Shown: positions 21,660 to 52,776 of the stretch, in pieces | Layout: each line of letters begins with the position of its first letter | Numbering within the stretch: the first letter of the stretch is position 1 | Origin: Prochloraceae cyanobacterium | GTDB taxonomy: Bacteria; Cyanobacteriota; Cyanobacteriia; Cyanobacteriales; JASJDA01 | DNA: 56,421 nt | Direction of reading: 5' to 3' | Assembly (NCBI GenBank): GCA_030065755.1 | Contig: JASJDA010000005.1 | Location: 1 to 56,421 of the forward strand | Notes under the pieces: model-generated | What the model was told of the DNA's origin: nothing | The model's input: the letters and a program-made list of their open reading frames with translations, nothing else | The model's database searches: none | Program-made: the position numbers and the translations under genes

Positions 21660-21970
21660 TATTTTTTATAAAGTGGCTAGAAGAAATTCATTTTTATACA
21701 AGGAACCCGAAGGATGTATTTATTTTTATAAAGACAGTCCTTTTCTTTAAGTTATCGGTTGGTGGGATAGGTTATCGGTTTATGAGGACTGTCTTTATAA
21801 AAATAGAATCATTGTCGCCCTTCTATACCGTTAACTTAACTGCGGAGTGACATAATTATATGAAAAAGGGTTCCTTGTATAAAAATAAAAACATCCCTCC
21901 TCTTCATAGTAGTTAATTTATCGGTCAAAACAGAAAAGTTATTGTAAAAGAGTCCACTTTATAAAAAATA
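21660..21970. repeat. Three nested inverted repeats of the variable-stem hairpin family
   Basis: Outer arms 21660-21676/21954-21970 (17 bp, perfect; stem TTTATAAAGTGG). Middle arms 21690-21708/21868-21886 (19 bp, perfect; TACAAGGAACCC). Inner arms 21721-21740/21786-21805 (20 bp, perfect; AAAGACAGTCC). A further pair, 21712-21730 with 21878-21896 (18 of 19), interleaves with these. The intervening DNA holds the family loop motifs (AGTTAATTTATCGGT; CCGTTAACTTAACTGCGG, inverted; AAGTTATCGGT). It fills the gene-free gap between a small head gene and the 21982 gene and appears to be insertion within insertion. Confidence 0.85.
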
Positions 21971-21981
21971 AAGTTTCTTGT

Positions 21982-22386
21982 ATGACGACTTTCGAGAGAG
22001 TAATTCTCGACAAACTGAACTTAAATAATGAAAGTTTGCTTGCTTTAAGTGAAGCAATCGAAGGTTTTGAAGGAAGCCAAACTGGGGAAACTCCTACTAG
22101 TTCTCTTGTCCTTTGTGTGGCTAATTACAATATTAGATACTTTGTAGGACAGCAAACTTTTTTAGTTCCCGATTCTATTGCTATAAGTTTAGTAATGAAA
22201 AGCGGAACAGGAACTATTCCCAGCCCTACGGGCAATATTCCCATGTCCCAAGGCTTTTCTTTACACTTACCTTTTAGGGCGATAAACTATTTCTACAGAC
22301 AATTTCAGTTTGAATTACTAACCTCAGATGCCGAAGCATTTCTATTGTATGAAGCTCAACCGACTAAAGAAGTATTAACTCCTTAA
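21982..22386 (+). CDS. Hypothetical phage structural protein
   Basis: A 134-residue protein starting MTTFERVILDKLNLNNESLL. The second half is rich in hydrophobic beta-like segments (FVGQQTFLVPDSIAISLVM, FRAINYFYRQFQFELLT) without a membrane helix. It lies two bases before the DUF1353 gene and just after the nested hairpins, whose right outer arm forms its 5' region. No family is recognised; its place in the rightward late operon suggests a virion or lysis-related role. Confidence 0.65.
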   Translation: MTTFERVILDKLNLNNESLLALSEAIEGFEGSQTGETPTSSLVLCVANYNIRYFVGQQTFLVPDSIAISLVMKSGTGTIPSPTGNIPMSQGFSLHLPFRAINYFYRQFQFELLTSDAEAFLLYEAQPTKEVLTP

Positions 22387-22388
22387 AT

Positions 22389-22874
22389 ATGCTTTTCTAT
22401 ACACCCAAAAAAGGGACATTAATTAATGATGGAAAACCTATTTACTTGGCTACCACTGGCAAAAAACTTTTCAAACTTTCCGAGTGGTGGCAATACAAAA
22501 ACGAATCTAACGTTTTATTCGTAATTCCTCGCTCTTTCACTTCCGATTTAGCGAGCATTCCTCCCATTGTTTTTTGGTGGCAGTATGGGAGTTGGAATAT
22601 TGCGGCAATCGCTCACGATTGGGCGTATATATTCGGTTATTTATTAATAGTAAAAGACGACAAATTAACGCAATTAACCGTATCTAAACAAGAAGCAGAT
22701 TGCATATTTGCTGATATTAATTATTCTCTAGGCGTTCCTGATTGGGTCAATTTTTTAATGTTTTTAGCCGTTAGATGGTTCGGCAGAGGCATATGGACGA
22801 GCGACGATTTCCCAAAATACGGGAAATCTTTGGATGAGTTGCAAACAGAATTCGATCTGCTAGAATTATCTTAG
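22389..22874 (+). CDS. DUF1353 phage protein
   Basis: A 161-residue protein with IPRSFTSDLASIPPIVFWWQ followed by AAIAHDWAYIFGYLL, the S-F-x-T/S-D-L-A-S-I-P and A-x-x-H-D signature of DUF1353, a family confined mainly to tailed phages. The conserved Asp and His suggest metal binding or catalysis, but the role is not established. The C-terminus contains an amphipathic segment (NFLMFLAVRWFGRGIW). It overlaps the convergent lysin gene by 9 bases at its 3' end. Confidence 0.85.
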   Translation: MLFYTPKKGTLINDGKPIYLATTGKKLFKLSEWWQYKNESNVLFVIPRSFTSDLASIPPIVFWWQYGSWNIAAIAHDWAYIFGYLLIVKDDKLTQLTVSKQEADCIFADINYSLGVPDWVNFLMFLAVRWFGRGIWTSDDFPKYGKSLDELQTEFDLLELS

Positions 22875-23714
22875 AATTCTGTAGCAACCTTGCCAACGAA
22901 TTTTAAAAACTTCTCTAGGAATCTTACTAAAAGCTCCATCGGGATTGGTGTAATTGCTCATCAAAGTGCCATAGGGATCGTGACTAATAAAGTTACCACC
23001 TTTACGACCAATTAGCAAGATTACGTGTCCCCCACGAGGAGCCGCTAAAGATCCTCGGTGGAGGATATTGCATACTACAGGAAAACCAGCGTCTAAAAGG
23101 TCTTCAATAAAGGGCAAGTCAGCGTCCGTCATCCACTTAGTTCGGAAGCCAAACTCTTGTATGGCAGAGGTTTGCACTCCATGATAAATGGTATCGCCAA
23201 ACTCTAAAACCTTCTTGAGATATATGTCGTCCGACTGTAATTGTGGTCTTCCTGTAACACGCAAAAGCCAATCTAAGTACATGGCGTTGCTAGAAGAGTT
23301 GCAAGTCCTGTGGGACATAGTATAATTGTCCCTCTGACTGAAATACCTAGTTGGCGTATTTAAATCTAAAGAGATTCCGCTTTGCAGATATGGCTTGAGG
23401 CGATCGATTTGTCGTCCTACTGCTGGATTGATAATTTTGGCTATTTCGGAGTTAGCGATCGGGTCGTCGCATTGGAGTACGCCCCAGTGGGGAGCGAAGA
23501 CATAGCCAGAAGTATAGTTACACCCTTCGATCGCCTCTTCAAGAACTATCCTGTAATGGCTTTTATTTAGGTCTCCTAATTCTTTTAGGTCTAAAGTCGT
23601 GTCTCTTCTAATCGGAAACTTATCGTTACTGTCTAACTGAGCGCTGTCTTTTAACTGACGCTTAAAAAGCGTGTTGGAAGTTGACTGTATAGCGGCTATC
23701 ATGTGGCGAGGCAT
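22866..23714 (-). CDS. C39-like cysteine peptidase, probable endolysin
   Basis: A 282-residue protein. The C-terminal 170 residues have a peptidase C39-like arrangement: Cys in HRTCNSSSNAMYLDWLL, then AGFPVVCNILHRGSL, and His plus Asp in GGHVILLIGRKGGNFISHDP. Such domains serve as phage cell-wall hydrolases. The N-terminal part (residues 1-80) contains SNTLFKRQLKDSAQ and RDTTLDLKELGD, compatible with a substrate-binding region. The lysin lies at the end of the head module in antisense orientation. No signal peptide is seen, so a holin would be needed for export. Confidence 0.75.
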   Translation of the reverse strand: MPRHMIAAIQSTSNTLFKRQLKDSAQLDSNDKFPIRRDTTLDLKELGDLNKSHYRIVLEEAIEGCNYTSGYVFAPHWGVLQCDDPIANSEIAKIINPAVGRQIDRLKPYLQSGISLDLNTPTRYFSQRDNYTMSHRTCNSSSNAMYLDWLLRVTGRPQLQSDDIYLKKVLEFGDTIYHGVQTSAIQEFGFRTKWMTDADLPFIEDLLDAGFPVVCNILHRGSLAAPRGGHVILLIGRKGGNFISHDPYGTLMSNYTNPDGAFSKIPREVFKIRWQGCYRILR

Positions 23715-23814
23715 TAACGCGACAAGTACAATTTAACTAATATTGCCGCGACAAGTCAACCCAATAAAACCGATAATAAACACAGTTAAAAATAGAATAT
23801 TTGTTTGATTCAAG

Positions 23815-23836
23815 AAACCCCAATTAATTGGGGTTT
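23815..23836. terminator. Symmetrical hairpin, likely bidirectional terminator
   Basis: AAACCCCAATTAATTGGGGTTT is a perfect 22-bp palindrome in a gene-free stretch (23715-24100) between the lysin start and the candidate small RNA. It ends in a short T run on both strands. The rest of the stretch is AT-rich and holds a copy of the TTAAAAATAGAAT block near 23786. Confidence 0.5.
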
Positions 23837-24100
23837 TAGTGTCTATTAATTTATGCAGATTTAAACTTTTTATTTCCGAACAATTCCTGAATAAAAAGCA
23901 GAATTCTCACTAAATTTTAGTGAATCTCCTAAATAATTTTACTTTTAAAGTATACTGAATTTTAGCCATAAAATACCGCAAATTTAAGCAAAATAAATAA
24001 TAATTTTGCTGAACAGAACCAAATAATATAAAATGGTTTAAAGCAAGTTCAATTGCTCAAGTTTTATTGGTATATTTATTCTTAAAATCCTTTTTTGGGC

Positions 24101-24202
24101 TTGTTTTTTTGGCTAATTATTGTATAATGAAAAAGTCTTTTTGAGTTTGCATAGAATAATGGTTCTTCCTGCTAGTTTGCTGCGATAACTAGCAGTTTTT
24201 TT
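24101..24202 (+). ncRNA. Candidate small RNA antisense-side of the helicase gene end
   Basis: TTGTTT (24101-24106), a 16-bp spacer and TATAAT (24123-24128) form a good promoter. The predicted transcript of about 65 bases ends in the stem CTGCTAGTT...AACTAGCAG (24169-24195) followed by seven T residues. It lies directly beyond the helicase stop on the other strand, like a counter-transcript. No protein of note is encoded. The boundaries are predictions. Confidence 0.45.
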
Positions 24203-24208
24203 AGGGGA

Positions 24209-26026
24209 CTATTCTAATGTAATAAATGCCTTTTTTTTAGCTCTTGTCAGCGCTGTGTATAAAATCTTTTGACGCTCGGGACAACGATTTAAGTCTTTGG
24301 CATCTAAAAAAACATAATCAATTGAAGAGCCTTGTGCTTTGTGTGTAGTTAATGCATAAGCAAAAGGAACATTGTCAAAAGTTTTGTTTAAAGCTTGAAA
24401 ACTTTGCCACTGTTTATCGTTTTTATAATTCTCCAGAATTTGTTTTTTCTTTTTCTCCGATTCTGGCATTAATATTTTCAAGTTCATCTCAGTTCCATCG
24501 TCCGATTCTACTGGAACAGAATAGTATTTTAATCGTCCTTCTTGCGTTTTATTTTCTTCATGTACTTTGATGGTAAAATCGTCAATAATTTTACATTCTT
24601 CAGAATTATTAATTTTGATTTGCCAGTCTTTAGGTGGAGTAAATTTTTCTCCTCGGAAAACTGGAGTTTTGGCAATTAGGCGATCGCCAATGCAGAAAGG
24701 CGGACAATCTTTTCCCCAAAGCTGTTCTCTGACAAAATTGTTGAGACCGATCGCACTTCTATTAGTGAAAACCAAAAATTTAACATCAGCCCAATCTTTA
24801 AAATAGCCACTAGCTCGATTAAGCCATTTTTGGCGAGGCAGCCTTACGATCGTCTCATCTGCTGTGGTGAGAAAAGGATACACTCTGCTGTTCCATTTGG
24901 GCTCGCTTCTGATTTGTTCAGCTACCTGACCTATTTCCCCATCGTAGCGAACAATCTCGGTTAATTCTGCGGAACTGGTTATCAGATCCGAACTAGCTAC
25001 TATTGGCTCTGTTGCGCCCACTGGAGGCAATTGCGCGGGGTCGCCAATAAACACTATTTTTACATCGCTTAAAAGCGCTTCAGCGTTTAAATAATCAAAG
25101 TTGTTTTCAGACAACATAGAAAACTCATCGCACAAAATAATATCATATTGAGACAAAGATATTTTGTTTTGTTTTTGTCCAGCAATAAACTCCTCTTTTG
25201 CCAACTTTTCGTTAAATACTGGCTGTTGTCCAATTAGCTGAGCAACTGTATGAGTTGTGATCTCATATACTCCAGCAAGTGTTGCTAAAGCAGCCATATT
25301 TTTCAAAGCTTTGTTGGTAGGAGCAGCGCCAATAAAACTAAATTTATTTTTTCTCAGCCATTTGAGAAACTGAGCAATTAAAAAGCTCTTTCCGCTACCT
25401 GCGTAACCAGTCAATCTAAAATATTTTTCGTCACTATTGATAAATTTATGCAAAGCAATTAAAGCATTTTGTTGACAGTTTGTCAGCTTTAAATTTGGCG
25501 ATAGTTCTTGAATTTCAACAAGAATATCAGAGTTTTTAGTATTATTTGGGTCTTCCCGATATTCTTCTTCGTATTCATAATCCTCATGATAACTTTCATC
25601 ATAATAACTTTCATAAGTTTCGTCATCAACTTCTAGATAATCTTCAGTTTGTTCATCAGGATTTTCTAAATATTCTTCTGGGTTTAATATTTTTCTTGTT
25701 TCTCGCTCCCACTCAGTTTGAATATTAAGCAAAAAGTCATATTGCAAAATAGACTCTGATATTAACTTTTGGCTTAAAAACATAGACACTTGTTCTATAG
25801 TTTCTTTTTGCTCGTAGGGAATTTTAACCCAGCAACATTCAACATCATCTTCTTCAAGCTCTAAATTTAAAAATTTATTTCGAGTTTCTTGTAAATAATC
25901 AACTTTTAAATGTTCGGGAAATATTTGTTCGTTTTTTAAGGCGGCAAGCAAATCCTTTATTAGCTCGACATAATCAACATGCACTTTAATTCTTTCATAG
26001 TTGAGTTTTCTTTTTAGTTGTGCCAT
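24209..26026 (-). CDS. RecD/Dda-like superfamily 1 DNA helicase
   Basis: A 605-residue protein. Motif I is LTGYAGSGKSFLIAQF, motif Ia/Ib GAAPTNKALKNMAALA, motif II YDIILCDEFSML, motif III VFIGDPAQLPPVGA, and the C-terminal UvrD_C_2-type motif is ALTTHKAQGSSIDYVFLDA followed by YTALTRAKKKAFITLE. These are the RecD/Dda-type 5'-3' helicase motifs. Residues 1-185 are an extra region with a very acidic, Tyr-rich stretch (DYLEVDDETYESYYDESYHE). It is probably used in phage or plasmid replication or recombination, consistent with neighbours. A 14-bp stem hairpin lies 25 bases upstream of the ATG. Confidence 0.92.
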   Translation of the reverse strand: MAQLKRKLNYERIKVHVDYVELIKDLLAALKNEQIFPEHLKVDYLQETRNKFLNLELEEDDVECCWVKIPYEQKETIEQVSMFLSQKLISESILQYDFLLNIQTEWERETRKILNPEEYLENPDEQTEDYLEVDDETYESYYDESYHEDYEYEEEYREDPNNTKNSDILVEIQELSPNLKLTNCQQNALIALHKFINSDEKYFRLTGYAGSGKSFLIAQFLKWLRKNKFSFIGAAPTNKALKNMAALATLAGVYEITTHTVAQLIGQQPVFNEKLAKEEFIAGQKQNKISLSQYDIILCDEFSMLSENNFDYLNAEALLSDVKIVFIGDPAQLPPVGATEPIVASSDLITSSAELTEIVRYDGEIGQVAEQIRSEPKWNSRVYPFLTTADETIVRLPRQKWLNRASGYFKDWADVKFLVFTNRSAIGLNNFVREQLWGKDCPPFCIGDRLIAKTPVFRGEKFTPPKDWQIKINNSEECKIIDDFTIKVHEENKTQEGRLKYYSVPVESDDGTEMNLKILMPESEKKKKQILENYKNDKQWQSFQALNKTFDNVPFAYALTTHKAQGSSIDYVFLDAKDLNRCPERQKILYTALTRAKKKAFITLE

Positions 26027-26050
26027 AATATTAATATTCCAATAACTAAT

Positions 26051-26085
26051 ATCAAAAGAGCTAGTGTCGCGCTAGCTCTTTTGAT
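26051..26085. promoter_or_regulatory. 14-bp perfect stem hairpin upstream of the helicase gene
   Basis: ATCAAAAGAGCTAG (26051-26064) and CTAGCTCTTTTGAT (26072-26085) form a perfect stem with a 7-base loop, located 25 bases before the helicase start codon. In the leftward transcript it would sit in the 5' leader, and it lacks a long T run, so it is more likely a translational or binding element than a terminator. Confidence 0.5.
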
Positions 26086-26217
26086 TATGGCACAAATTTT
26101 AATGAAGGCAAATCAAGCAGATAATTTTGTTAAGGTGTTGTCAGGATTAAATTTAGGCAAGCTTTTTAAAAACTTGTTAACTATCTGAATATCTGCTGTA
26201 TATGTAACGAATAATTC

Positions 26218-26300
26218 ATTTTTAATGAGGAACCCTTTTTCAAATAGTTATGTCTCTTCGCAGTTAAGTTGTCGGTATAGAAGGGTTCCTCATTAAAAAT
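26218..26300. repeat. Variable-stem hairpin element (copy with TTAATGAGGAACCC stem)
   Basis: Arms 26218-26237 and 26281-26300 are perfect 20-bp inverted repeats around a 43-base loop. The loop contains AGTTATGTC and CGCAGTTAAGTTGTCGGTA, matching the loops of the copies at 21868 (inverted), 27921 and 52688. The right arm encodes the stop codon of a 54-residue gene on the minus strand. The left arm and loop closely resemble the middle element at 21690-21886 read in reverse. Confidence 0.85.
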
Positions 26301-26457
26301 AATTTCCTTCCGTAACAGAAATTTTAGCGCCACTAGACATATGAAGAATCGGAAAGAATACATCTTGTTCTTCTTCTTCCCAAGCAATATGGCTAATCAT
26401 ACTGGTATTAACAATAACTAAAGCTTCAGGTAGTTTTAGCCAATTATTTTCGTTCAT
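26293..26457 (-). CDS. Small acidic protein (54 residues)
   Basis: ATG 26457 opens a frame reading MNENNWLKLPEALVIVNTSM, then ISHIAWEEEEQDVFFPILHM and SSGAKISVTEGNYF, ending in TAA at 26295-26293. Cyanobacterial plasmids and chromosomes carry many similar short proteins of the pattern N-T-S-x-I-x-x-I-x-W-E...H-M-x-S-G, role unknown. The last codons and the stop lie in the arm of the hairpin element, so the element either landed at the end of the gene or supplied its terminus. Confidence 0.65.
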   Translation of the reverse strand: MNENNWLKLPEALVIVNTSMISHIAWEEEEQDVFFPILHMSSGAKISVTEGNYF

Positions 26458-26499
26458 TTTTTTATCCTATTGAACTTATTTTCATTATAGCTAACTATC

Positions 26500-26844
26500 C
26501 TATTTTTTACCGACATAACAAAATCTTATTTGCGCTCGATCGATATTTTTTCTGCCCCAATACATCCCATCTTCAGGGATAGATTTAGTAATTTTTCTAC
26601 TTTCTCTAATTATTTCTTTTGCCTCTTTAAAAGTTTTGCAAAAAACCAGAGCTTCTACAATTTTTTCTGATTCTTTTTTCGATTCGATTTTAACAAAAAC
26701 ATTGACTCCTAATTTGTATTGTAACCTTTCTTTTTCTTCACGATCGGGAACAAAATAATTGTCGTTCAAAATTACAGTTTGATGGGATAGACTTAAAAGA
26801 TAAATAGGATATTTTTGATATTTTACTATTTTTTCTGCAAACAT
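26500..26844 (-). CDS. Hypothetical protein
   Basis: A 114-residue protein (MFAEKIVKYQKYPIYLLSLS...). Alternating beta and alpha segments (LGVNVFVKIESKKESEKIVE, LVFCKTFKEAKEIIRESRKI) suggest a compact alpha/beta fold; no catalytic motif is recognised. AGGTTTAA precedes the start. It is the gene immediately downstream of the winged-helix replication protein (16 bases), and therefore likely co-transcribed with it. Confidence 0.65.
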   Translation of the reverse strand: MFAEKIVKYQKYPIYLLSLSHQTVILNDNYFVPDREEKERLQYKLGVNVFVKIESKKESEKIVEALVFCKTFKEAKEIIRESRKITKSIPEDGMYWGRKNIDRAQIRFCYVGKK

Positions 26845-26860
26845 TTAAACCTCCAAATTG

Positions 26861-28717
26861 TCAAAATTCTAAATCTTCAATCTTTATTGGATGTCCTAAT
26901 TTGTTCCTAACTACCACAAAATTTTCTTTCTCAGCCGCTTTTAAAGCTTCTCCAATCAAAACAGCATCGCCAGATTCAAGAAAGCTATTTAAGGTTTTTA
27001 ATTGCTTGCGAACCTTCTCTAAAGGATCTTCTGTATCCTCAACAACAGGACGCAAACTAGATTTTTTATTAAAAGTTTTAAACTTAGCCGTAAACTCAGC
27101 CCATTGTTCTGGGCTAGCCATTTGTTCCTCTTCCTGCTTTCTTTTACGCTCGTATTCCGCGCGATCGAAACTCTTATAAGCCTCTACGTTATCGGCTCCT
27201 TCAGGGACTTTATTAGAGTCAGAAGTCAGAAGTCGCTCGGCTGAAGTTGAGTTATTTTCCTCGGACCTCGCTATTAAATTTAAATCTTGTGCTGTACTTT
27301 TGGTTGGTAGTTGTTGCACCGTTGTGTTTTGTGGCGGCAAATCATTGGTATTGTTAGGTTGTTCAGCTTGAACGCCTACTGGTAACTGTGCAACTAAATT
27401 AGTACTTTGTTGCAATCCCTTATCCTCATAGGACATCTCTGGGGGCAATGGTTTGGCAACAGCCCGAACATTATTTTTAAGTTCTTTCTCTTCTTCAACG
27501 CCAACCGTACAGCCGTGGGAAATTCTCAAATCGGCATTCTGATACTTAGCTAAATAAGTCTCACTATATTGATTCCACCGAATAACTAGCTTACTTAAAT
27601 CGTTCTTATAGTAAGCCAGCACGTTCGCCTTGGCTTCGTATTTATCCTTACAATCAAATCGCCCCATCCACCAATCGACAGACCACTTGAGGAATTCAGG
27701 ATCTAATTTTCCTTCACTTGTACACCAGACACCAGGAGGAACCCAATTCAAAGCCTCTTTGAGCCGATCCATGTTTGTCTGTTTTGGATTGTTGGCGCGT
27801 GCTTGAAATTTGTTTTCAAACGTACTACACGCGGAATAAACCTCCCCTTGGTTTAAATTCGTTTTTGCCACGATAGCGGTGGTAGTTTCTTTATCCGAAG
27901 TCGATACGGTTGAGGTATTTTTATTTTTAATAAGGAAGTCCGAATTTGTAGTTAAGTTATTGATGCCAGCAGATAAGTTATCGGTAAGGACTTCCTTATT
28001 AAAAATAATTTCTTCAGAGGTTTGTTGCTCTAAGATTTCAGCTTCAACTGTTCGGTTGTCTTCTTCTATGGTTTCAAGAATAGCTTTTTGCCTTTCTAAT
28101 TCTTGTTTAAATTCGTCAACCTTTGTATTTGTTTCCTCGTCATCTAGCCAAGGATCTCCAAAAATTTCTTGCTCGCCCTCTAGATCTAAAAAGTCTTTAT
28201 TAGTCTGTATAGTCTTAGAGCGTTCGCGATCCGCTTTTGGTGCGGGTTTCGAGGAGCGATTTTCCGAGATCTTAGAATTTATTCTAGGATCTTGTAATCC
28301 ATTACGAGATCCTAGAATTTTCTCCAAATTCTCGGAACTTGGAGAATCACTGGTATACTGGTCATTCTCCAAATTCCTAGAATCGCTCTGTTGTTGAGAA
28401 TGGTTTGACGCTAAATTTACTTTGATGGTAAATTTGCCGCTAATAATCTTGATGAGGTCTAGCGCTTTGAGTTTTGCGATCGCATCGTAAACGCTACTCT
28501 CTGGAATCCCCATTTCCATAGCAAGCTCTTTGCCAGTGAAAGTAATGGTCTTTTCGTTGTACGGGTCGCCTGTTCTGAACCAGTAATAAACGTATGTGGC
28601 ATTATTTATTAAGCCAATCTCTTTTTGGATCTTTAATTCTTCTCGTGTCAAGGCGTGAAATGTTTTAGCTTGTATTTTCCCATTTTTGCCTATGATGCTG
28701 GTTACTTTTAAGCTCAT
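26861..28717 (-). CDS. Winged-helix replication-initiator-like protein
   Basis: A 618-residue protein. Residues 20-100 carry a winged-helix fold (NATYVYYWFRTGDPYNEKTI, KELAMEMGIPESSVYDAIAK, LKALDLIKIISGKFTIKVN), like phage O-type and plasmid replication proteins. A conserved domain near residue 330 reads RLKEALNWVPPGVWCTSEGK and WSVDWWMGRFDCKDKYEAKA, also seen in cyanobacterial replicon proteins. The linker between them is low-complexity and largely encoded by hairpin DNA (27921-28008, 28281-28372). GGGAGGAAAC is a strong Shine-Dalgarno before the ATG. The origin may lie in the linker. The initiator role is inferred. Confidence 0.65.
   Translation of the reverse strand: MSLKVTSIIGKNGKIQAKTFHALTREELKIQKEIGLINNATYVYYWFRTGDPYNEKTITFTGKELAMEMGIPESSVYDAIAKLKALDLIKIISGKFTIKVNLASNHSQQQSDSRNLENDQYTSDSPSSENLEKILGSRNGLQDPRINSKISENRSSKPAPKADRERSKTIQTNKDFLDLEGEQEIFGDPWLDDEETNTKVDEFKQELERQKAILETIEEDNRTVEAEILEQQTSEEIIFNKEVLTDNLSAGINNLTTNSDFLIKNKNTSTVSTSDKETTTAIVAKTNLNQGEVYSACSTFENKFQARANNPKQTNMDRLKEALNWVPPGVWCTSEGKLDPEFLKWSVDWWMGRFDCKDKYEAKANVLAYYKNDLSKLVIRWNQYSETYLAKYQNADLRISHGCTVGVEEEKELKNNVRAVAKPLPPEMSYEDKGLQQSTNLVAQLPVGVQAEQPNNTNDLPPQNTTVQQLPTKSTAQDLNLIARSEENNSTSAERLLTSDSNKVPEGADNVEAYKSFDRAEYERKRKQEEEQMASPEQWAEFTAKFKTFNKKSSLRPVVEDTEDPLEKVRKQLKTLNSFLESGDAVLIGEALKAAEKENFVVVRNKLGHPIKIEDLEF
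27921..28008. repeat. Variable-stem hairpin element inside a coding region
   Basis: Perfect 21-bp arms 27921-27941 and 27988-28008 (TTTTTAATAAGGAAGTCC and complement) enclose a 46-base loop with GTAGTTAAGTTATTGATGCC and AGATAAGTTATCGGTAA. It sits in the linker of the replication-like gene on the minus strand, read in frame as EIIFNKEVLTDNLSAGINNL and continuing TTNSDFLIKNKN, with no stop codon introduced. Confidence 0.9.
28281..28372. repeat. Cluster of palindromes in the replication-like gene
   Basis: ATTCTAGGATCT (28281-28292) pairs with AGATCCTAGAAT (28307-28318), extended by GTAAT/ATTAC. TTCTCCAA (28320-28327) pairs with TTGGAGAA (28339-28346), and TTGGAGAAT (28339-28347) pairs again with ATTCTCCAA (28364-28372). 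Repeated short arms inside a replication gene resemble iteron or origin architecture. Confidence 0.7.
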
Positions 28718-28770
28718 TTGTTTCCTCCCTTATTAATACTAAATCTGCTCAGCAGTAACTAATATTTCTT

Positions 28771-29415
28771 CTATAAAAAAGTCAAATTTTGCCCATCAAT
28801 AAGTATCAAATTGGCTTCAATATTTAGACAAGAACAGTTGTAAATGATATGGCTTAAACCCGAACAATCTAGATACTGCATCTTGTTAACTAATATGTAA
28901 AATTTCAATTTTTTATGAGCAATTTTTTTTGCTGCTTCGACCAATTTTTTTGCCCCTCCTAACCAGTCACGAAGGTAGGAGATAATTATCATTTCTTCTT
29001 CAGTTAATATGTCAATTGTTATTTTCCCTGTAATGTGTATTGTTTTTAGTCCCCCTCTTTTTTCATGAATAATTTCTCTTATATTTCTGCGTTGCTGTAT
29101 CGATTTTTTATTGGGAATTACTTCTGTCCGCTCTATAAAATAATCGTCAATTATATTAAAATCTGAAACTACTTCGTCAAATCTTCTATTCAAGTCTGAA
29201 ACCATTTTGTCAAGCCCTGAATAACACCAGGAATTTATATAAACGTATATAGCTTCTTGATGAGAAGTTAAAATTTTCCATCCAAGTTTTGGATGTCCTG
29301 TATCATCTTCAACAACAAAACAAAATTCTTGATAGCCTGGGATATTATCACTGCCATAAGGTATAGGTCGTTTTTGGTCTTTATTCCATTCGTTATTTAA
29401 ATCTAGATTGTTCAT
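28771..29415 (-). CDS. STAS-like domain protein
   Basis: A 214-residue protein. The C-terminal half reads LKTIHITGKITIDILTEEE, then a helix (GGAKKLVEAAKKIAHKKLKF), YILVNKMQYLDCSGLSHIIY and ANLILIDGQ. This is the beta-alpha pattern of STAS (anti-sigma-factor-antagonist) domains, with LDCSGL at the place where the usual D-S-S-G-L phosphorylatable loop occurs. The N-terminal half is unrecognised. It starts 53 bases before the winged-helix gene on the same strand. The role may be regulatory. Remote similarity only, so moderate confidence. Confidence 0.55.
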   Translation of the reverse strand: MNNLDLNNEWNKDQKRPIPYGSDNIPGYQEFCFVVEDDTGHPKLGWKILTSHQEAIYVYINSWCYSGLDKMVSDLNRRFDEVVSDFNIIDDYFIERTEVIPNKKSIQQRRNIREIIHEKRGGLKTIHITGKITIDILTEEEMIIISYLRDWLGGAKKLVEAAKKIAHKKLKFYILVNKMQYLDCSGLSHIIYNCSCLNIEANLILIDGQNLTFL

Positions 29416-44964: not shown

Positions 44965-44974
44965 AGAGGGTCAA

Positions 44975-45446: not shown

Positions 45447-45491
45447 ATTTAAACTTCAAACACTTCAGTATAAGTGTAACTCGCTTTTAAT

Positions 45492-45848
45492 CTAATAGTG
45501 GGTTGCCCTATTGGTATCCAGATATATTTTGTGTTGTTTGAGTTTGGTCTCGATATCCTTAACAATGTCATAGAGTCTTTTTATTCTACGATCGTCTTTA
45601 TTCTGTCCCCATTCGTACTCTTTTCTCAATACATTCTCTTTATTGCAAACAGATTTTTCAAGATCCTTAAAATCCATCTCTTTCTTGACTACGCGGATCT
45701 TAAGTTCGCTGATTTGTCTTTCTAGGCGATCGCAAGCTTTATCAATCTTTTTGTCTATTTCCCCTTCCTTAACTCCCATACGGTAAAGTATGCCACCGAG
45801 CGCTGCTATATTTATAACTATCTCTAATTGACTTAATGCTATACTCAT
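45492..45848 (-). CDS. Coiled-coil membrane-associated protein
   Basis: A 118-residue protein. The N-terminal LSQLEIVINIAALGGILYRM is a likely membrane helix, followed by heptad-rich coiled coil (KIDKACDRLERQISELKIRV) and a C-terminal KDDRRIKRLYDIVKDIE. Small coiled-coil/TM proteins in phage and plasmid contexts can be holins or partition accessory factors, but none is assignable. A truncated copy lies at 42312-42442. Confidence 0.6.
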   Translation of the reverse strand: MSIALSQLEIVINIAALGGILYRMGVKEGEIDKKIDKACDRLERQISELKIRVVKKEMDFKDLEKSVCNKENVLRKEYEWGQNKDDRRIKRLYDIVKDIETKLKQHKIYLDTNRATHY

Positions 45849-45915
45849 GATAAAATAATAGGCTAATTTATAGATTTATAATAAAGTTTTCTTAGGCAGA
45901 GTAAAATCGTCAATT

Positions 45916-46116
45916 TTACCGATCTTCGTGCTGGTGTTGGAGAATTTCGTTTAACTCTGCTGGTGATACTTGCTCGTTGAACACGAGATCGAAAGCTTTA
46001 GTGTGCAATCTAAATGATAAGGAACTAATAACTACTAAAAGTAATGAAGCCGTACTAATCGCACCATTAGCACTCGACGCTAGGAGTTTTCTGTAATTTC
46101 TTAACTGCGTTCGCAT
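45916..46116 (-). CDS. Small putative membrane protein
   Basis: A 66-residue protein (MRTQLRNYRKLLASSANGAI...). SANGAISTASLLLVVISSLS is a probable membrane helix after a basic N-terminus, and the rest is an acidic amphipathic tail (FNEQVSPAELNEILQHQHED). It may be a holin-like or signal-anchored protein. No family is recognised. Confidence 0.45.
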   Translation of the reverse strand: MRTQLRNYRKLLASSANGAISTASLLLVVISSLSFRLHTKAFDLVFNEQVSPAELNEILQHQHEDR

Positions 46117-46224
46117 TGATTTTAAATTAATTTCCTGCTGTTAACATTAATTTAATTTCTTTTCTCTTCAATGCGATCGTAGGTTTTAAGTAATTATTGA
46201 AGAACATGTGAACCATTTGGATCT

Positions 46225-46389
46225 ATGCCGCGACAAAGACGGGTTAATGTGCGGTTGAGCGATGAAGAATTTAAATTTTTGCAACAGTTAGCTAAGCGTT
46301 ATGGTGCTAGTAAATCTGATGTAATGAGAATGCTCCTAAGAAGTGAATATGAGCTACAGATCGGGCATTCTTCTAATAAATTAGATTAA
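46225..46389 (+). CDS. Small CopG-like RHH protein (54 residues)
   Basis: ATG 46225 opens MPRQRRVNVRLSDEEFKFLQ, then QLAKRYGASKSDVMRMLLRS and EYELQIGHSSNKLD, stop at 46387-46389. The strand RRVNVRLSDEEFKFLQQLAK followed by ASKSDVMRMLLR is a textbook ribbon-helix-helix. It lies directly before the 12-bp iteron array and the HTH gene, so it may regulate or bind there. Confidence 0.75.
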   Translation: MPRQRRVNVRLSDEEFKFLQQLAKRYGASKSDVMRMLLRSEYELQIGHSSNKLD

Positions 46390-46476
46390 GGTGTATACTG
46401 CTTGATATACAGCCCGATATCCAGTAACGTATACAGTATAATATACAGCATTATATACAGCCAAGTATACAACTCA
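46390..46476. repeat. 12-bp iterons upstream of the HTH gene
   Basis: Units with consensus (A/G)TATACAGC(n3-4), e.g. GATATACAGCCC, GTATACAGTATA, ATATACAGCATT, ATATACAGCCAA, GTATACAACTCA, are repeated with a 12-bp period (one unit shifted by one base). They end at the ATG 46477. Related units (ATAAACACCCCG, ATATACAGCGAT) continue inside the gene near 46706-46810. They look like binding sites for a repressor or replication initiator. Confidence 0.8.
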
Positions 46477-47094
46477 ATGTCAAGCAAAAATTTAAGCATA
46501 AAAGAGCTTTTAGAGCGCTATAATCTAAAAATCAGAAAGTCAATTTATGATTGGTGTAAAAAAGGCGCAAAGATAGAGCTGCAGAAGGATGAGAACGGGC
46601 GATCGTATGCTACTCCAGAGCAAGTGGCGATACTCGATCAATTAGCAGAACATCTTAAGAAACCCGATAGCACTCTCTCTAATTTTGTCCCCGTGTCTAC
46701 CGTTGAAGTAAACACCCCAGTAAACACCCCAATAAACACCCCAATAAACAACTCGATATACAGCGATAGTACTGAAATAAACACCCCGATAAACACCCCG
46801 ATAAACACCCAGCTATTAGCAGAATTAACATCTATTGGTTATTCCCTTGTATCTGCTCTGCGCGAGCGAGATCCTCTCGAACACTATAGTTCTTTAGAGC
46901 GAGCGATGTTATCTAATTGGTTATTAACTACATCGGAAGTTAAAGCATTAATCGGGGTGAAACCTAAAACTAAAAAAGGTGATAATACTTTTAGAAGGGG
47001 TAATTGGGTGTTTGTTAAAAGCGGTAAAATTGGAAATCAAGCAGCATGGCAAGTAACAAAAGTATCGACAAATCTAAACTCCTCAAACGATTAA
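46477..47094 (+). CDS. HTH/MerR-like protein with repeated NTP units
   Basis: ATG 46477 (MSSKNLSIKELLERYNLKIR) is preferred; the frame is open to 46402 through the iterons. About 205 residues. The N-terminal SIKELLERYNLKIRKSIYDW followed by EQVAILDQLAEHLKK looks like a winged or MerR-like HTH. A linker has VNTPVNTPINTPINNSIYSD and INTPINTPINT, encoded by 12-bp repeats. The C-terminal region (ERAMLSNWLLTTSEVKALIG, FRRGNWVFVKSGKIGNQAAW) suggests a second DNA-binding part. Probable replication or transcription regulator. Confidence 0.65.
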   Translation: MSSKNLSIKELLERYNLKIRKSIYDWCKKGAKIELQKDENGRSYATPEQVAILDQLAEHLKKPDSTLSNFVPVSTVEVNTPVNTPINTPINNSIYSDSTEINTPINTPINTQLLAELTSIGYSLVSALRERDPLEHYSSLERAMLSNWLLTTSEVKALIGVKPKTKKGDNTFRRGNWVFVKSGKIGNQAAWQVTKVSTNLNSSND

Positions 47095-47498
47095 ACAAAG
47101 ACGTTAAAAAAATATATGCCGATGTAGTAGCGAAATATAATCTCGAAGTCGATCGCGTCATAACCGATCCAAACGAGTTCGCTAACCTTGGTTTTGTCGA
47201 GCAAGACATAGTCGATACTGGCAGGCTCAGAGACTCGAAAATTATTGAAACTCAAGGCGAATTATCTACTCGGTTTTCTTGGGATCCTGTCGATCCAGAG
47301 ACAGGTTATCATTACGCGAGCGCGGTTTTTTGGGGATTCAATGCTTATGGCGGGAGTAAGTTTGTACCAGGTCGTCCTTGGAGTGAGCGAGCCGTCTACA
47401 ATCATGATCCTGTCAACTATTTTGCTGCTCGTCTTAAGAAAGCAGGCTACAACGCTAAGGTGGTTAGGGACGATACTCGGACGATCGGCTTGCCATAA
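47046..47498 (+). CDS. Phage tail-completion-like protein (HK97 gp10-type candidate)
   Basis: A 150-residue protein (MASNKSIDKSKLLKRLNKDV...). DIVDTGRLRDSKIIETQGEL, YHYASAVFWGFNAYGGSKFV and PGRPWSERAV carry the DTGRLRxS and GRPW motifs typical of HK97 gp10-like neck/tail completion proteins. It overlaps the end of the upstream HTH gene by 49 bases. Its presence links this region to the terminase and head modules. Confidence 0.55.
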   Translation: MASNKSIDKSKLLKRLNKDVKKIYADVVAKYNLEVDRVITDPNEFANLGFVEQDIVDTGRLRDSKIIETQGELSTRFSWDPVDPETGYHYASAVFWGFNAYGGSKFVPGRPWSERAVYNHDPVNYFAARLKKAGYNAKVVRDDTRTIGLP

Positions 47499-47507
47499 CC
47501 TTGCTGT

Positions 47508-47799
47508 TCAAAATTTGCCTCCTCTAACCAACCAACCTAGAAACGCAGCAAAACCGCTAGAAATGACAATAATAGCTATTTGCCTCCAATGCATGTTGTT
47601 GTCCTAGTTGTTGGGAAAGATCGGGAAGTTTGTTAATCATTGGCTCCCAACCTTTCATTAATCCTTCAATTTTTGCACTTACTATTTGTAGCTCTTTGAC
47701 TTCCTGTTCTAGTTTGTCAAAGCGTTTATCTACTCGCTCGCTCAAATCTTGAATTAGCTGCTTAATTTCTTGAATTTCTGTATTAGTTGTATTGCTCAT
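47508..47799 (-). pseudogene. Coiled-coil plus membrane helix protein with a frameshift
   Basis: The frame MSNTTNTEIQEIKQLIQDLS ... LSQQLGQQHALEANSYYCHF stops at 47557. Shifting by one base at about 47606 restores an open frame reading NNMHWRQIAIIVISSGFAAF then LGWLVRGGKF, with a stop at 47510-47508. The combined protein would be a coiled coil followed by one TM helix, like the intact 53313-53693 gene. So there is a single-base indel or sequencing error, unless the shift is programmed. Holin-like by layout. Confidence 0.65.
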
Positions 47800-47952
47800 A
47801 GTACTTTGGTTATTGTTTGCAAGCGCTCGCTCGCTGCTAGCTCAAACTTAGTGATGTTAATTAATGCTGCTTTCAACTAATACTAATTAGACTAATTAAT
47901 CTAGGGAATAAATAATAAATTTTACTGAGGATTTTCCGACTATGATTTTGAT

Positions 47953-47989
47953 AAAAAAAATCCCGCGATCGAGTTGGTTGGAATCGCGG
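47953..47989 (-). terminator. Intrinsic terminator downstream of the 48126-48581 gene
   Basis: CCGCGAT (47963-47969) and ATCGCGG (47983-47989) form a stem; on the minus strand it is followed by GGATTTTTTTT. It lies 140 bases beyond the stop of the trypsin-co-occurring-domain gene. The stretch 47820-48125 has no other gene. Confidence 0.65.
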
Positions 47990-48125
47990 AACTTATTTAA
48001 ATCTTTGTTATTGTTTAGTCAACTAATTCGCCGAAGTAAGTAGAGTTTTATTATACTTGAAAGTCTCAAAAAATATGGGCAAATTAATTAAAATAACCAG
48101 AATTTTTCAAATATTGCCATAGTTT

Positions 48126-48581
48126 TTATTGGTTTTCTGATTCGTTATTGTCGTTGTCTTTTGGAAAAGAACATTCTACTTGAATTTTTAGGTTACTTTC
48201 GGCTGTGCCTTTTGTTATGTAAGGTACTGCCCCTTCAGCACCAACTTTAATTCCAAATTCTAGAGTTACTTTCTCGATATTGGCACTGCTCTTTACTTGT
48301 TTAAAAGCATTTAAGGTGTGAGTAGTATAAGCTTTGATAGTTTGTTCGATTGCTTCAAAAGTATTAACGACTGGTTCAGAGACTTTCGTTCCAGTTTCTT
48401 GTATTAGCCTTTTAGTACCTCTTACTAAGTCTTTTACTCCTTTGCCTTCTTTTCCCAAGTCCTCTCTGGTTAATTCTTTTTCCTCATCAGGAGCAACCGA
48501 CTCTGGAACTTGAACATCAACAGTAGTTTCAATATAAATTACTGTACCGTCTTCTAGTTTGAGAGGGGTTAGTTTAGTCAT
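48126..48581 (-). CDS. Trypco1 (CU044_2847-like) domain protein
   Basis: A 151-residue protein. LKLEDGTVIYIETTVDV at the start, a helical linker (EAIEQTIKAYTTHTLNAFKQ) and VTLEFGIKVGAEGAVPYITK with ESNLKIQVEC match the trypsin-co-occurring domain 1 / CU044_2847 pattern (V-x-L-E-F-G-I-K-x-x-A-E-A-G-x). Such domains accompany trypsin, caspase and STAND NTPase conflict systems. It is divergent from the caspase-STAND gene with only 79 bases between starts, a likely regulatory or partner relation. Confidence 0.75.
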   Translation of the reverse strand: MTKLTPLKLEDGTVIYIETTVDVQVPESVAPDEEKELTREDLGKEGKGVKDLVRGTKRLIQETGTKVSEPVVNTFEAIEQTIKAYTTHTLNAFKQVKSSANIEKVTLEFGIKVGAEGAVPYITKGTAESNLKIQVECSFPKDNDNNESENQ

Positions 48582-48660
48582 AAATTTTAGCTTTGACCGT
48601 AATTATTGACTGCTACGATCAAAGTAGCAGGGAACGGGAGCTGATAACTCTCTTTAAGTT

Positions 48661-51600
48661 ATGAGTCGGGATGCAATAGTCGTCGGTATTAATTGCTATC
48701 AAGATGAGAAATTGCCAAACCTTACTGCACCTGCAGAAGATGCGGAGGCGATCGCTCGACTCTTGGAGCAATGTGGTGATTTCAAGGTTTGGCGACTTCC
48801 TGAAGCTATTAATCAAGAAGATAATTCGTCTTATGTGGGCAAGACTCCTAAAGTTAAAGTGACCAAAAATCAACTCGAAGAGGCTTTAGGTCAACTTTTC
48901 AAGCCAGAAGGACGAAGTATTCCTGATACGGCCCTATTTTATTTTTCAGGGCATGGAATCCGCCAAAATCATATTCTTCCAGAAGGATTTTTAGCCACCA
49001 GCGATGCCGCTCCAGATGTAGGATTTAATGGAGTTTCCTTGCAATGGCTGCGGAGATTACTTCAGTCGAGTCCTGTAAAGCAGCAGATTATTTGGTTAGA
49101 TTGTTGCTATAGCGGAGAATTGCTCAATCTTGACGAAGCCAATCCAGGAGAACGAGGAATTGCACGCGATCGTTGTTTTATTGCCGCTTCTAGAGAATTT
49201 GAAAAATCTTATGAGAGTATTGGGTCAAAATATAGTGTTTTAACCAAATTCTTGTTAGAAGGGATTGACCCTAATCGTTTTCCCCAACGTTGGTTGACGA
49301 CGATCGATTTAACTTCTTATATTAGTCAAAATTTAAAACTTGATATTCAACGTCCTATTTATACTAACTTTGGCGAACCTATTAATTTAACTCATACTTG
49401 GGAAATTTCTGAGAAAAAATCAACTCAAGAGTTAGCTTCAACTATCTGTCCGTACAGAGGATTAGCTTATTTTGATTGCAACGACGAAGATCCCAAATAC
49501 TTTTACGGACGCTCGGAACTGACCAATCAATTGTTAGATAAGGTGCGTCAATCAAATTTCCTGGCTCTAGTTGGAGCCTCTGGTAGTGGTAAATCTTCAG
49601 TTCTGAGAGCCGGACTGCTGCATCAATTGAAGTTGGGACGAGCAATTTCAGGTAGCGATAGTTGGGAAATTCATATCATGCTTCCTGGAGAGCATCCTTT
49701 GCAAAATTTAGCTCTGACATTTGTAGACCCTAACCTCGATAGATTAGAGAGGGCTAAAAAGTTAGGACAATCCGAAGGATTAATCAAAGAAGGAGCAGAT
49801 GGTTTACGCCACTTAATACAGTCTTCTGACGTTCCTCGCATTATCTTAGCGATCGATCAATTTGAGGAATGTTTTACTCTTTGTCAGAATAAGCTCGAAC
49901 GAGAGCAATTTTTCAGATGTATTCTTGGAGCTAACGATCAAATTCCTAAGTCGCTTTGTGTCATCATCGCAATGCGAGCTGATTTTTATAGTAAGTGTTT
50001 AGAGCAAGAGTATAGCGGTCTAGCCAAAAAAATTCAGGAGAATTTGATCAATGTAACACCAATGAATCGGACGCAAATAGAAGAAGCTATTATCAAACCA
50101 GCAACAAAAGTAGGAATAAAAATCGAGTCAGAATTAGTTAAAGGAATAATTAAAGATGTAGAAGGTGGCCCTGGTAGTTTGCCTCTGCTAGAGTACACTT
50201 TGACTCAGTTATGGGAACAGCAAACAGATAACTGTTTGAGGCTAAATGCCTATATTAAGATGGGTGGTGTCAGTGGTGCGTTAGATCGAAGAGCTACCGA
50301 AGTTTACGAACAATTTTTATTGCCCAAGCAGAAAATAGGCAAGCAAGAGCAATCCATTGCCAAGCAAAAACAGGAAACAGTCAAGCACATTTTCCTTTGT
50401 CTAACTCAGTTGGGAGAAGGAACGGAAGACACCCGAAGGCGAGTAGCCAAAAACGATTTAGTAACCGACAAACATCCTATTGCAGTTGTTGAAGATGTAG
50501 TTCAGCAGTTGGCTGATAAGAGGTTAGTTGTTACTAATGACTTATTAGCCAAAGGTTCGCAAACAGGGCGAATACAGGTAGTAGATGTAGCTCATGAAGC
50601 TATAATCCGGCACTGGGGATTATTGCGTCAATGGCTAGATGAAAGTCGAGATTATTTAAGACAGCAGCGAAAGATTGAAACAGCAGCAAAAGAATGGAAA
50701 AATACTAAAGACTCTTTTTATCTTTTACGAGGAATAAGATTAAAACAGGCCAGAAATTTTCAAAAAGAGCAAGCCGAACGCTTTCCTTTATCTATTTCCG
50801 CCAACGACTTTATCAAAGCTAGTGTAAAAGAACAAATCAGTAGGCAATTTCAGGCTATCTTTAGCTTGTTATTCTTCTTTAGTCTGATATTCAGTTCAGG
50901 TATATTAGTTCAAGTGCCAGTTTTTATACATAGAAAAACACTGCAAGATTGTAATGGAGTTGAAGGTTATTGTCTGGGAAGAATCAAAGCACTTGAGGAA
51001 TTAACTATAGCTCGCACAAGTTTGAAAAATATCAATCTCGTAAGAGCCGACCTGAGAGCTGCCTACCTAAGTGGTGCCCAGCTCAACAGGGCCATTCTGA
51101 GTGAGGCCAACCTAAGTGAGGCCAACCTAAGTGAGGCCAACCTAAGTGAGGCTGACCTTAAAGGTGCCCAGCTCAACAGGGCTAACCTAAATGAGGCTGA
51201 CCTTAAAGGTGCCCAGCTCAACAGGGCTAACCTAAATGAGGCTGACCTTAAAGGTGCCCAGCTATCAGGTAAAAAAAACTTATTCGAAAACTTCTTCGCC
51301 GACCCAAGAGTTCCTATAAGATATGAAGATCTGGGTAAAGATGAGTTCATTTATGCCAACCTAAGTGAGGCTGACCTAAGTAAGGCTGACCTAAGAGGTG
51401 CCAACCTCATTGGTGTCAACCTCTCACATGCCAACCTCAATGGTGCCAAGCTCTATGAAGCCGACCTCTCATATGCCGACCTGAAAGGCGCCGACCTAAG
51501 AGGTGCCAAGCTCAATGGTGCCGACCTAAGAGATGCCGACCTCAATGGTGCCGACCTAAGAGGTGCCAAGCTCTTTGTTGCCGACCTCTCACATGCCGAC

Positions 51601-52110
51601 CTGAAAGGTGCCAACCTAAGAGGTGCCAACCTCATTGGTGTCAACCTCTCACATGCCAACCTCAATGGTGCCGAGCTAGAAAAAGCTGATTTTAGGAGCG
51701 TTATTGCAACTGGATTTGGTTTAATGATCGGGAGGTTCTTATTCGATCAGGGTGAGTTTTATGTCCAGAGAGTATATCAAGACACTTCGGCGTTTAAAGC
51801 AGGTATCAAGGAACAGGATGAGATCGTCAAAATTAACGGCAAAAGAACTGACAAAATATCTATGCTTTATGCCTATAGTCTCCTTTTTTATGAACCAGGC
51901 ACAAAAGTAACATTAACAATTGAACGAAACAATCAGGAAAAAGATTATGTATTAGTTAGCGATCGCTTTACTGTATCCGTTCGAGGTTTAACCCCAGAGC
52001 AAGTAAAGAGAGCAAAAAACTGGGAAAAAGCTTGTTACGATCCAGATTTTCGCTATCAACTTGGTTTATCACGAGCGCAAACTGAAGAATGTAAAAAACT
52101 CAACAATTAA
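48661..52110 (+). CDS. Caspase-nSTAND1-pentapeptide-PDZ protein
   Basis: A 1,149-residue protein. Residues 1-240 are a caspase-like (C14) protease with His98 in FYFSGHGI and Cys149 in WLDCCYSGEL. Residues about 262-560 are an nSTAND1 NTPase (Walker A GASGSGKSS at 305-313, Walker B IILAIDQFEECF). A TM segment near 735-760 (FSLLFFFSLIFSSGILVQVP) precedes pentapeptide repeats (about 780-1010; LSEANLSEADLKGAQLNRAN). A PDZ-like domain at about 1020-1105 (AGIKEQDEIVKINGKRTD) ends it. It resembles cyanobacterial suicide proteases triggered by signal-dependent oligomerisation. The PDZ could bind substrate C-termini. Confidence 0.9.
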   Translation: MSRDAIVVGINCYQDEKLPNLTAPAEDAEAIARLLEQCGDFKVWRLPEAINQEDNSSYVGKTPKVKVTKNQLEEALGQLFKPEGRSIPDTALFYFSGHGIRQNHILPEGFLATSDAAPDVGFNGVSLQWLRRLLQSSPVKQQIIWLDCCYSGELLNLDEANPGERGIARDRCFIAASREFEKSYESIGSKYSVLTKFLLEGIDPNRFPQRWLTTIDLTSYISQNLKLDIQRPIYTNFGEPINLTHTWEISEKKSTQELASTICPYRGLAYFDCNDEDPKYFYGRSELTNQLLDKVRQSNFLALVGASGSGKSSVLRAGLLHQLKLGRAISGSDSWEIHIMLPGEHPLQNLALTFVDPNLDRLERAKKLGQSEGLIKEGADGLRHLIQSSDVPRIILAIDQFEECFTLCQNKLEREQFFRCILGANDQIPKSLCVIIAMRADFYSKCLEQEYSGLAKKIQENLINVTPMNRTQIEEAIIKPATKVGIKIESELVKGIIKDVEGGPGSLPLLEYTLTQLWEQQTDNCLRLNAYIKMGGVSGALDRRATEVYEQFLLPKQKIGKQEQSIAKQKQETVKHIFLCLTQLGEGTEDTRRRVAKNDLVTDKHPIAVVEDVVQQLADKRLVVTNDLLAKGSQTGRIQVVDVAHEAIIRHWGLLRQWLDESRDYLRQQRKIETAAKEWKNTKDSFYLLRGIRLKQARNFQKEQAERFPLSISANDFIKASVKEQISRQFQAIFSLLFFFSLIFSSGILVQVPVFIHRKTLQDCNGVEGYCLGRIKALEELTIARTSLKNINLVRADLRAAYLSGAQLNRAILSEANLSEANLSEANLSEADLKGAQLNRANLNEADLKGAQLNRANLNEADLKGAQLSGKKNLFENFFADPRVPIRYEDLGKDEFIYANLSEADLSKADLRGANLIGVNLSHANLNGAKLYEADLSYADLKGADLRGAKLNGADLRDADLNGADLRGAKLFVADLSHADLKGANLRGANLIGVNLSHANLNGAELEKADFRSVIATGFGLMIGRFLFDQGEFYVQRVYQDTSAFKAGIKEQDEIVKINGKRTDKISMLYAYSLLFYEPGTKVTLTIERNNQEKDYVLVSDRFTVSVRGLTPEQVKRAKNWEKACYDPDFRYQLGLSRAQTEECKKLNN

Positions 52111-52526
52111 GGCTGAAATATACCATAAAACTCTTGCCCCAACTCATTCTTTACATATGGATTCTGAGGATAAAGTTTCAAAGTAAATTTCCCACGAACA
52201 CCATCAATTTCAATCTCCCCTTCCTGCAGATGAGTAACCGTATCGGGAAATATTTTAGGCTCGGTCAGTCTTCCTCTAACCTCAATAATTTTCTGATCTT
52301 TCCCTGCATAATAGGCATCGCTAGGCGATCGAGGCGAATCTTCTTGATGCACGATCGCACGTAACTCAATCAAATCAGCCGAACTTTTCCCGATTATTTC
52401 CTGTCCCGTTATGGGGTCAACTTTGATTACAGACTCTTTGAAGTACAGGGTAGCATTGGCGTTGGCTGCTAGTGGCTCGAATGCGCTCTGTGGTGGGGTG
52501 AAATTGAAACTAGATTTGTAGGTCAT
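52107..52526 (-). CDS. Probable phage head-tail joining protein
   Basis: A 139-residue protein (MTYKSSFNFTPPQSAFEPLA...). Beta-rich: YFKESVIKVDPITGQEIIGK, LIELRAIVHQEDSPRSPSDA and LTEPKIFPDTVTHLQEGEIE. Head-closure proteins of tailed phages have this composition; none is firmly matched. Its stop codon overlaps the caspase gene stop by 4 bases, the two being convergent. It lies just before the terminase module, in antisense. Confidence 0.55.
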   Translation of the reverse strand: MTYKSSFNFTPPQSAFEPLAANANATLYFKESVIKVDPITGQEIIGKSSADLIELRAIVHQEDSPRSPSDAYYAGKDQKIIEVRGRLTEPKIFPDTVTHLQEGEIEIDGVRGKFTLKLYPQNPYVKNELGQEFYGIFQP

Positions 52527-52687
52527 TAGACGAAATTAGACGGAATTTAAACGTAGTTAGACGCGTCTGTTTCAGTGATAGTCAGCTTTTCAATTTTACT
52601 TTTTAATCTACCGTCTAAAAAATTAGACGATCGTCTAGTGCTATATTCTAGGAAAACAAACATTGTTTAAATGCCAGGAGCAGTACT

Positions 52688-52776
52688 TATTTTAAATAAA
52701 GGGAGTCCTCGTAAAGTAGTTAAGCTAAATACTTCCGCAAATAAGTTATTGATAAGGACTCCCTTTATTTAAAATA
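52688..52776. repeat. Variable-stem hairpin element before the terminase genes
   Basis: Perfect 21-bp arms 52688-52708 and 52756-52776 (TTTTAAATAAAGGGAGTCC and complement) enclose a 47-base loop with GTAGTTAAGCTAAATACTTCC and AAATAAGTTATTGATAA. It ends 10 bases before the small terminase ATG, so it lies in its 5' leader. The loop matches the copy at 27921-28008 at most positions while the stem differs. Confidence 0.9.

Follow-up and report, generated by a model that had tools for sequence, protein, structure and literature searches.

Mobile hairpins of a Prochloraceae cyanobacterium: exact pairing probably kept by copying between arms

A 56,421-nucleotide stretch of a Prochloraceae cyanobacterium genome (assembly GCA_030065755.1, contig JASJDA010000005.1, positions 1 to 56,421; hereafter the window) carries six long hairpins with similar loops and with perfectly matched stems that differ between copies. 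We found that these hairpins are real and are members of one mobile family, present in well over a hundred copies in the genome. Our favoured explanation, which we consider probable, is that they are lineage-specific, non-autonomous mobile elements whose exact pairing is kept by copying from one arm to the other, the same event inverting the loop, and, with less confidence, that they are mobilised by a putative transposase acting in trans. Each element is ordered as end (11-13 nt), arm (~20 bp), loop, arm and end.

Hairpin copies within the window

All six hairpins reported by the first-pass annotation of this DNA hold, with perfect arms of 17, 19, 21, 20, 21 and 22 bp:

21648..21982, strand not assigned: outer element of a nested set; arms 21660-21676/21954-21970, 17 bp
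21677..21899, minus strand: middle element; arms 21690-21708/21868-21886, 19 bp; ends 21677-21689/21887-21899
21709..21817, plus strand: inner element of end type I, 109 bp; arms 21721-21741/21785-21805, 21 bp
26209..26311, minus strand: copy of end type IV; arms 26218-26237/26281-26300, 20 bp; GTAAC at 26204-26208/26312-26316
27912..28018, strand not assigned: in-frame copy within the open reading frame (ORF) 26861-28717; arms 27921-27941/27988-28008, 21 bp
52678..52786, strand not assigned: copy adjoining the start of the ORF at 52787; arms 52688-52709/52755-52776, 22 bp

Chance hairpins were ruled out by five single-base shuffles of the window, which yielded no arm of at least 15 bp, and also by the pairing observed at sites picked through an end motif alone. 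The reported conservation of the loop was likewise upheld: its motif has 13 matches in the window at up to 3 mismatches against 5.4 expected, a number reached by 0 of 100 shuffles, and across the 8.46-Mb genome there are 30 occurrences of AAGTTATCGGT, compared with 7 of its reversed control, ~12 of the 30 lying outside recognisable hairpins.

In the nested set at 21660-21970, the inner element lies in an arm of the middle element and the middle element in an arm of the outer one. The outer element, whose limits (outer ends reaching ~12 nt beyond each arm) are estimated from the family, has its left arm split by the middle element, which is in turn split in its own arm by the inner element. The loop of the middle element closely resembles that of the 26218 copy on the opposite strand, while its stem is different and yet again matched. 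The inner element has the ends GAAGGATGTATT and GAATCATTGTCG and is flanked by CCC on both sides (21706-21708 and 21818-21820); in the uninterrupted state, seen in a sibling element, its target reads GGAACCC and then TTCTATACC. The 27921 copy, flanked by GGTT at 27908-27911 and 28019-28022, keeps the frame of its 618-aa host ORF, and both the homologous gene of a congener and a paralogue are without it. The 52678..52786 copy has ATGCCAG on both sides (52671-52677 and 52787-52793); since the right ATGCCAG contains the ATG of the ORF and a second one stands at the left, the start codon seems to have been duplicated.

Family size and distribution

The type I right end, AAAAATAGAATCATTG, has 64 exact matches and a further 26 that differ at one base, against 0 and 1 for reversed controls. 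A covariance model built from 17 copies, a sample biased by its selection for perfect arms, gave at least 150 scored rows genome-wide, many places being listed on both strands. A profile of the left arm and loop, which ignores the right arm, identified 152 non-redundant places in sampled loci of this genome; this is a figure for the sample (1.15 Mb with overlaps counted twice, 11 locus-edge matches excluded) and not a genome total. Several copies stand at contig ends, so the assembly seems to break at hairpin copies.

Model R1 had matches in two of 40 relatives, namely the own genome and one congener, and under stricter filters in one of 292 genomes of the phylum, again the own genome. Model R2, representing a short-stem sister hairpin, matched two of 60 genomes under the same stricter filters, these being the own genome and the same congener; as the stricter filters left the own genome only 12 R1 matches, weak families could escape both searches. 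Within the searches made, the family thus appears in this genome and one congener only. A loop pattern that fits 20 of 128 copies matched a single Micrarchaeota contig, with no hairpin around the match, in the GTDB collection and no viral contig, in collections that may omit the window's own genome. One stretch of the window compared with plasmids, and one compared with phages, had no match. A literature search yielded no published description that we recognised as this hairpin family; Elhai is said to have described small dispersed repeats of Nostoc.

A sister family, with the same loop units, shorter TAGACAGCCTT-like stems and other ends, was observed in L064-L072, L013, L024 and L027. Matches to model R2 number 15 in the congener and 19 in the genome studied here, the latter including some main-family copies.

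The two arms change together

Among the 152 places, 139 have a helix of 19-26 bp, three have one of 16 bp and ten are without a real partner, some of these because a nested copy interrupts them. The 139 stems contain 33 mismatches, 25 of which lie 2-3 bases from the outer helix end, beyond the conserved arm, and eight in the core, where they are spread over seven stems and include a single G.T. When sites were chosen through an end motif alone, the arm was paired at 19-20 of 20 positions in 34 of 42, 7 of 10 and 20 of 22 sites for three motifs (eight and four locus-edge sites being excluded for the first and third), and most remaining sites were partnerless.

Comparison of 88 near-neighbour pairs (loop identity of at least 75%, arms compared ungapped) revealed 257 two-sided and 26 one-sided arm differences, whereas 42 and 456 would be expected if arms of equal divergence changed independently. 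The arms of these pairs differ at 15% of sites and their loops at 462 of 4038 columns. In the alignment of the 17 copies, two-sided changes occur in 15 of 20 pairs against 6.7 in shuffles, with 43 cells changed on both sides and 4 on one. The earlier proposition that both arms must have changed together was therefore supported, including through the covariation test that it had called for. The accompanying statement that stems differ from copy to copy needs qualification: there are 73 distinct arms among the 139 stems (with 132 distinct loops), but these are not unrelated, sharing a common frame of ATTTTT at the base and CC(T)T at the loop end with variable sequence in between.

Loops occur in both orientations and combine with different ends

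The loop, mostly 42-46 nt long, comprises two copies of a AGCAGATAAGTTATCGG-like unit ~20-21 bp apart. With end types and four reference loops set by hand, 99 of 128 copies passed the thresholds for typing (similarity 0.75, arm of at least 18 bp), and whole-loop alignment placed the loop in one orientation relative to the ends in 60 of them and in the other in 39. In ten pairs of the same end type, the loops are at least 85% identical once inverted; L117:1629 and L106:1785, for example, share end type and an identical arm, and their loops are 98% identical when one is inverted. Of the 11 end types, each of the four loop classes is represented in 5 to 10. End type is associated with the outer arm positions, and for the inner positions there is an association with loop class as well.

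In 13 pairs of copies the host DNA is homologous at both flanks, in some cases only because the two copies lie in sibling elements. At one such shared site, L132:6615 and L085:5751 have identical ends and differ at one arm position that has changed on both arms. At another, the arms of L111:5142 and L073:12725 are identical at 23 of 23 positions and the loop matches only when inverted.

Insertion sites and target choice

The element measures ~103-110 bp, typically ~107 bp. The first-pass annotation had described the family as lacking conserved ends, in contrast to miniature inverted-repeat transposable elements (MITEs); this is not supported in that form, as the 11-13 nt outside the stem recur within types, most of which are tied to a particular triplet. 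The empty sites that it had suggested seeking were found as candidates, in other sampled DNA, for 38 of the 99 typed copies, although sibling elements make up many of the partners, a few partners are of poor quality, and L078/L131 and L082/L102 each represent one event counted twice. Among the clean cases, comparison of L125:1278 with L073 (flanks 91% identical) gives an insert of 109, that of L044 with L126 (flanks 89% identical) an insert of 111, and L112 and L093, nested in siblings, an insert of 110. Copies fall within long open frames in 13 of 109 cases, against 637 of 1168 random intervals.

A repeat of at least 3 bp joins both ends in 28 of the 38 cases, compared with 24.1 when right flanks are swapped within type (maximum 29 in 500 trials) and 13.1 when flanks are swapped across types. 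The value retained after within-type swapping indicates that the short repeat belongs mostly to the end type, and short end repeats do not distinguish duplication of the target from a right site carried by the element. L082/L102, with target ATGC and right end AGAC, has no end repeat. In favour of duplication, repeats of at least 5 bp occur in 31 of 118 copies against 16 in within-type shuffles, several of them in low-complexity CCCCTC runs.

In 80 of 84 copies the element is preceded on its left by a C. Type I copies have CCC as the target triplet in 31 of 34 cases and type III copies have GGC in 5 of 5; the corresponding counts for types IIIb (GGC, 5 of 5), IV (TAC, 6 of 9) and VI (CCC, 5 of 6) are partly circular, because the reference strings of these three types contained target letters. 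Types II and V have mixed target triplets. Five type V copies (L073, L075, L087, L103 and L111) occupy the same position within the loops of sibling elements, with GATCG on the right; their flanking repeats, TGC/TGC or TAC/TAC, vary with the host loop, which likewise favours duplication. A general preference for hairpin targets was not found at 116 sites (p 0.82 after G+C correction); 11% of these sites lie below the 5th percentile of the controls, many of them self-insertions. Insertion is often into the family's own copies and mostly at type-specific triplets. In one region (G000 C134, ~88900-90400; L002 and L077), stacked nested copies have the successive right ends GTCGGAC, and each copy seems to have entered the arm of the preceding one at GAC.

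Target position -3 is complementary to element position +4 in 61% of the 84 copies, or in 57% of 53 distinct combinations (z +6.8 and +5.4, respectively, relative to shuffles), the next-best of 54 position pairs being target -2 with element +4 (38%, z +6.5). Since the copies are related, with few independent end types, and 39% of copies are unpaired, this complementarity serves as a lead only, and so does IS200/IS605-like targeting guided by base pairing. The copy L109:5197, a type I end with C in place of G at +4 and with GGAC in place of CCC as its target, fits such pairing; type I copies with A at +4 that nevertheless stand at CCC do not. A transposase acting in trans might then choose the target through the element's own end, a step in which we place less confidence than in arm copying. 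As a rather doubtful extension, the family would be a selfish hairpin of modular build: its arms would rewrite one another, its loops would invert and pass from shell to shell, and a few bases of the element's own end would pair with the target, so that a changed end base re-aims insertion. If the target lead is true, the family would constitute a minimal DNA-guided insertion system.

Candidate mobilising enzymes

The Y1 transposase model PF01797 has 16 matches in the genome, eight with translations of 134-183 aa and the others shorter. None of the 16 TnpA matches could be tied to element ends, and no RAYT turned up, no RAYT-specific model having been run. We considered the hairpins as ends of IS605 elements and rejected this: four TnpA loci have a hairpin within 75 bp, which we read as insertions beside or in the insertion sequence (IS). 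A parent element combining the same ends with a gene was not found in the sampled loci, and comparison of paralogous TnpA loci gave no IS boundaries.

Origin of the exact pairing

The first-pass annotation had left two explanations for the matched stems, strong selection on folding and templated copying of an arm, of which the second is the better supported, given the two in-place cases described above and the lack of a G.T excess. Under our favoured explanation, one arm would repeatedly be copied from the other through template switching when the hairpin is replicated or repaired, either in place or during transposition, and the same event would invert the loop. Template switching between inverted repeats has been described to homogenise arms and invert spacers (PMC8604942). 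If selection for RNA or DNA folding had shaped the stems, G.T pairs should be tolerated, and their near absence leads us to prefer templated copying. The less likely alternative, to which we still give some weight, is that the stems are selected to fold as single-stranded DNA for a mobilising enzyme, such as an HUH transposase of the IS200/IS605 type, with no copying between arms. The absence of an extended terminal inverted repeat, the internal hairpin, the C at the left in 80 of 84 copies, the type-specific targets and the 16 Y1 transposase matches are all consistent with it, as is an end repeat largely set by type (28 of 38 against 24.1), which a right cleavage site carried by the element would produce; IS608 has also been reported to read its tetranucleotide target by base pairing (PMC5934647). 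However, only one of eight core mismatches is G.T, loop inversion at a shared site is left unexplained, and no TnpA is tied to the element ends. Compensatory selection on a conserved RNA structure, such as a regulator or terminator hairpin, is very improbable. Covariation is strong, though in copies chosen for pairing, and the seven copies tested fold stably, as single-stranded DNA; by contrast, G-U intermediates are almost lacking, loops facing either way with respect to the ends are found, the window has 0 Rfam matches at the gathering score, and the copies behave as inserted units with empty sites.

Exchange of whole blocks between copies, through gene conversion or recombination, could in principle produce all two-sided differences without any copying between arms, and is suggested by the association of outer arm positions with end type and of inner ones also with loop class, as well as by the spread of each loop class over 5 to 10 of the 11 end types. 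We regard it as improbable as the sole cause, because exchange with unequal end points should produce mismatched stems, whereas mismatches are rare, and because a single base has changed on both arms at one site. Several observations nevertheless weigh against copying between arms. The arms reassort as blocks with ends and loops, so that some two-sided differences represent exchange between copies. Among the 13 pairs with both flanks homologous, there are only one apparent in-place flip and one clear two-sided change, and the same-site pair L078/L131 shows a one-sided change. L125 is empty at the site of the flipped pair L111/L073, and is 91% identical to L073, whereas L111 and L073 are 82% identical; two separate insertions of flipped siblings are therefore possible. 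The yeast spacer inversions described in PMC8604942 concern short spacers, whereas the loop here exceeds 40 nt. No transposase was identified among the candidates examined.

Copying between arms is usually deduced from single loci, and well over 100 copies in one genome would provide parallel records of it. The family helps to tell templated correction apart from folding selection, and its shared sites are places at which the timing of loop inversion and of arm correction could be followed.

Comparison with known systems

MITEs, such as Nezha of cyanobacteria, are short, non-coding and inserted at many places. The present family differs in that its tips are not complementary over any length and that it has its long inverted repeat inside the element, with a sequence that changes from copy to copy: between the tips 5' GAAGGATGTATTT and 3' AGAATCATTGTAA, few bases pair, around an internal loop, and there are no terminal inverted repeats. 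Mitochondrial double-hairpin elements and repetitive hairpin-forming elements are also mobile hairpins with variable stems; these are organellar, and the likeness is one of description.

REP/RAYT elements and REPINs resemble the family in being small, numerous, hairpin-forming and probably non-autonomous. REPs are described as 20-40 bp long, with a GTAG or CGTC tag and mostly very short loops (PMC3733652), whereas the elements here are ~107 bp long with a loop of ~43 nt, and their end types start with GA, GG or TG after the target triplet, finish in a TTGT-like sequence and have neither tag. With IS200/IS605 elements such as IS608, which recognises its target through base pairing (PMC5934647), the family shares the lack of terminal inverted repeats, an internal hairpin and a short fixed left target; it differs in being gene-less with a single long hairpin. 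Membership in the REP, MITE or IS200/IS605 groups is not established. There is also a likeness to template-switched inverted repeats (PMC8604942), which have identical arms and an inverted spacer, both of which are seen here; the cases described there are single sites with short spacers in yeast genes, whereas ours is a dispersed mobile family. In its behaviour, our family corresponds to such a template-switched repeat with mobility added.

Other features of the window

Phage-like genes are present at 20241-21452 and 53777-55222, encoding a P22-type coat protein (PF11651) and a large terminase (PF03237), and a 1149-aa protein with caspase-like, nSTAND1, pentapeptide and PDZ domains is encoded at 48661-52110. 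Two features fit a cyanobacterial origin of the window: it contains 16 HIP1 sites against 0.4 expected, and for one window protein the best 10 of 129 plasmid relatives are all cyanobacterial, with 27-29% identity, although many of the 129 are enterobacterial. Some stretches of the window are matched by paralogous regions at other places in the genome.

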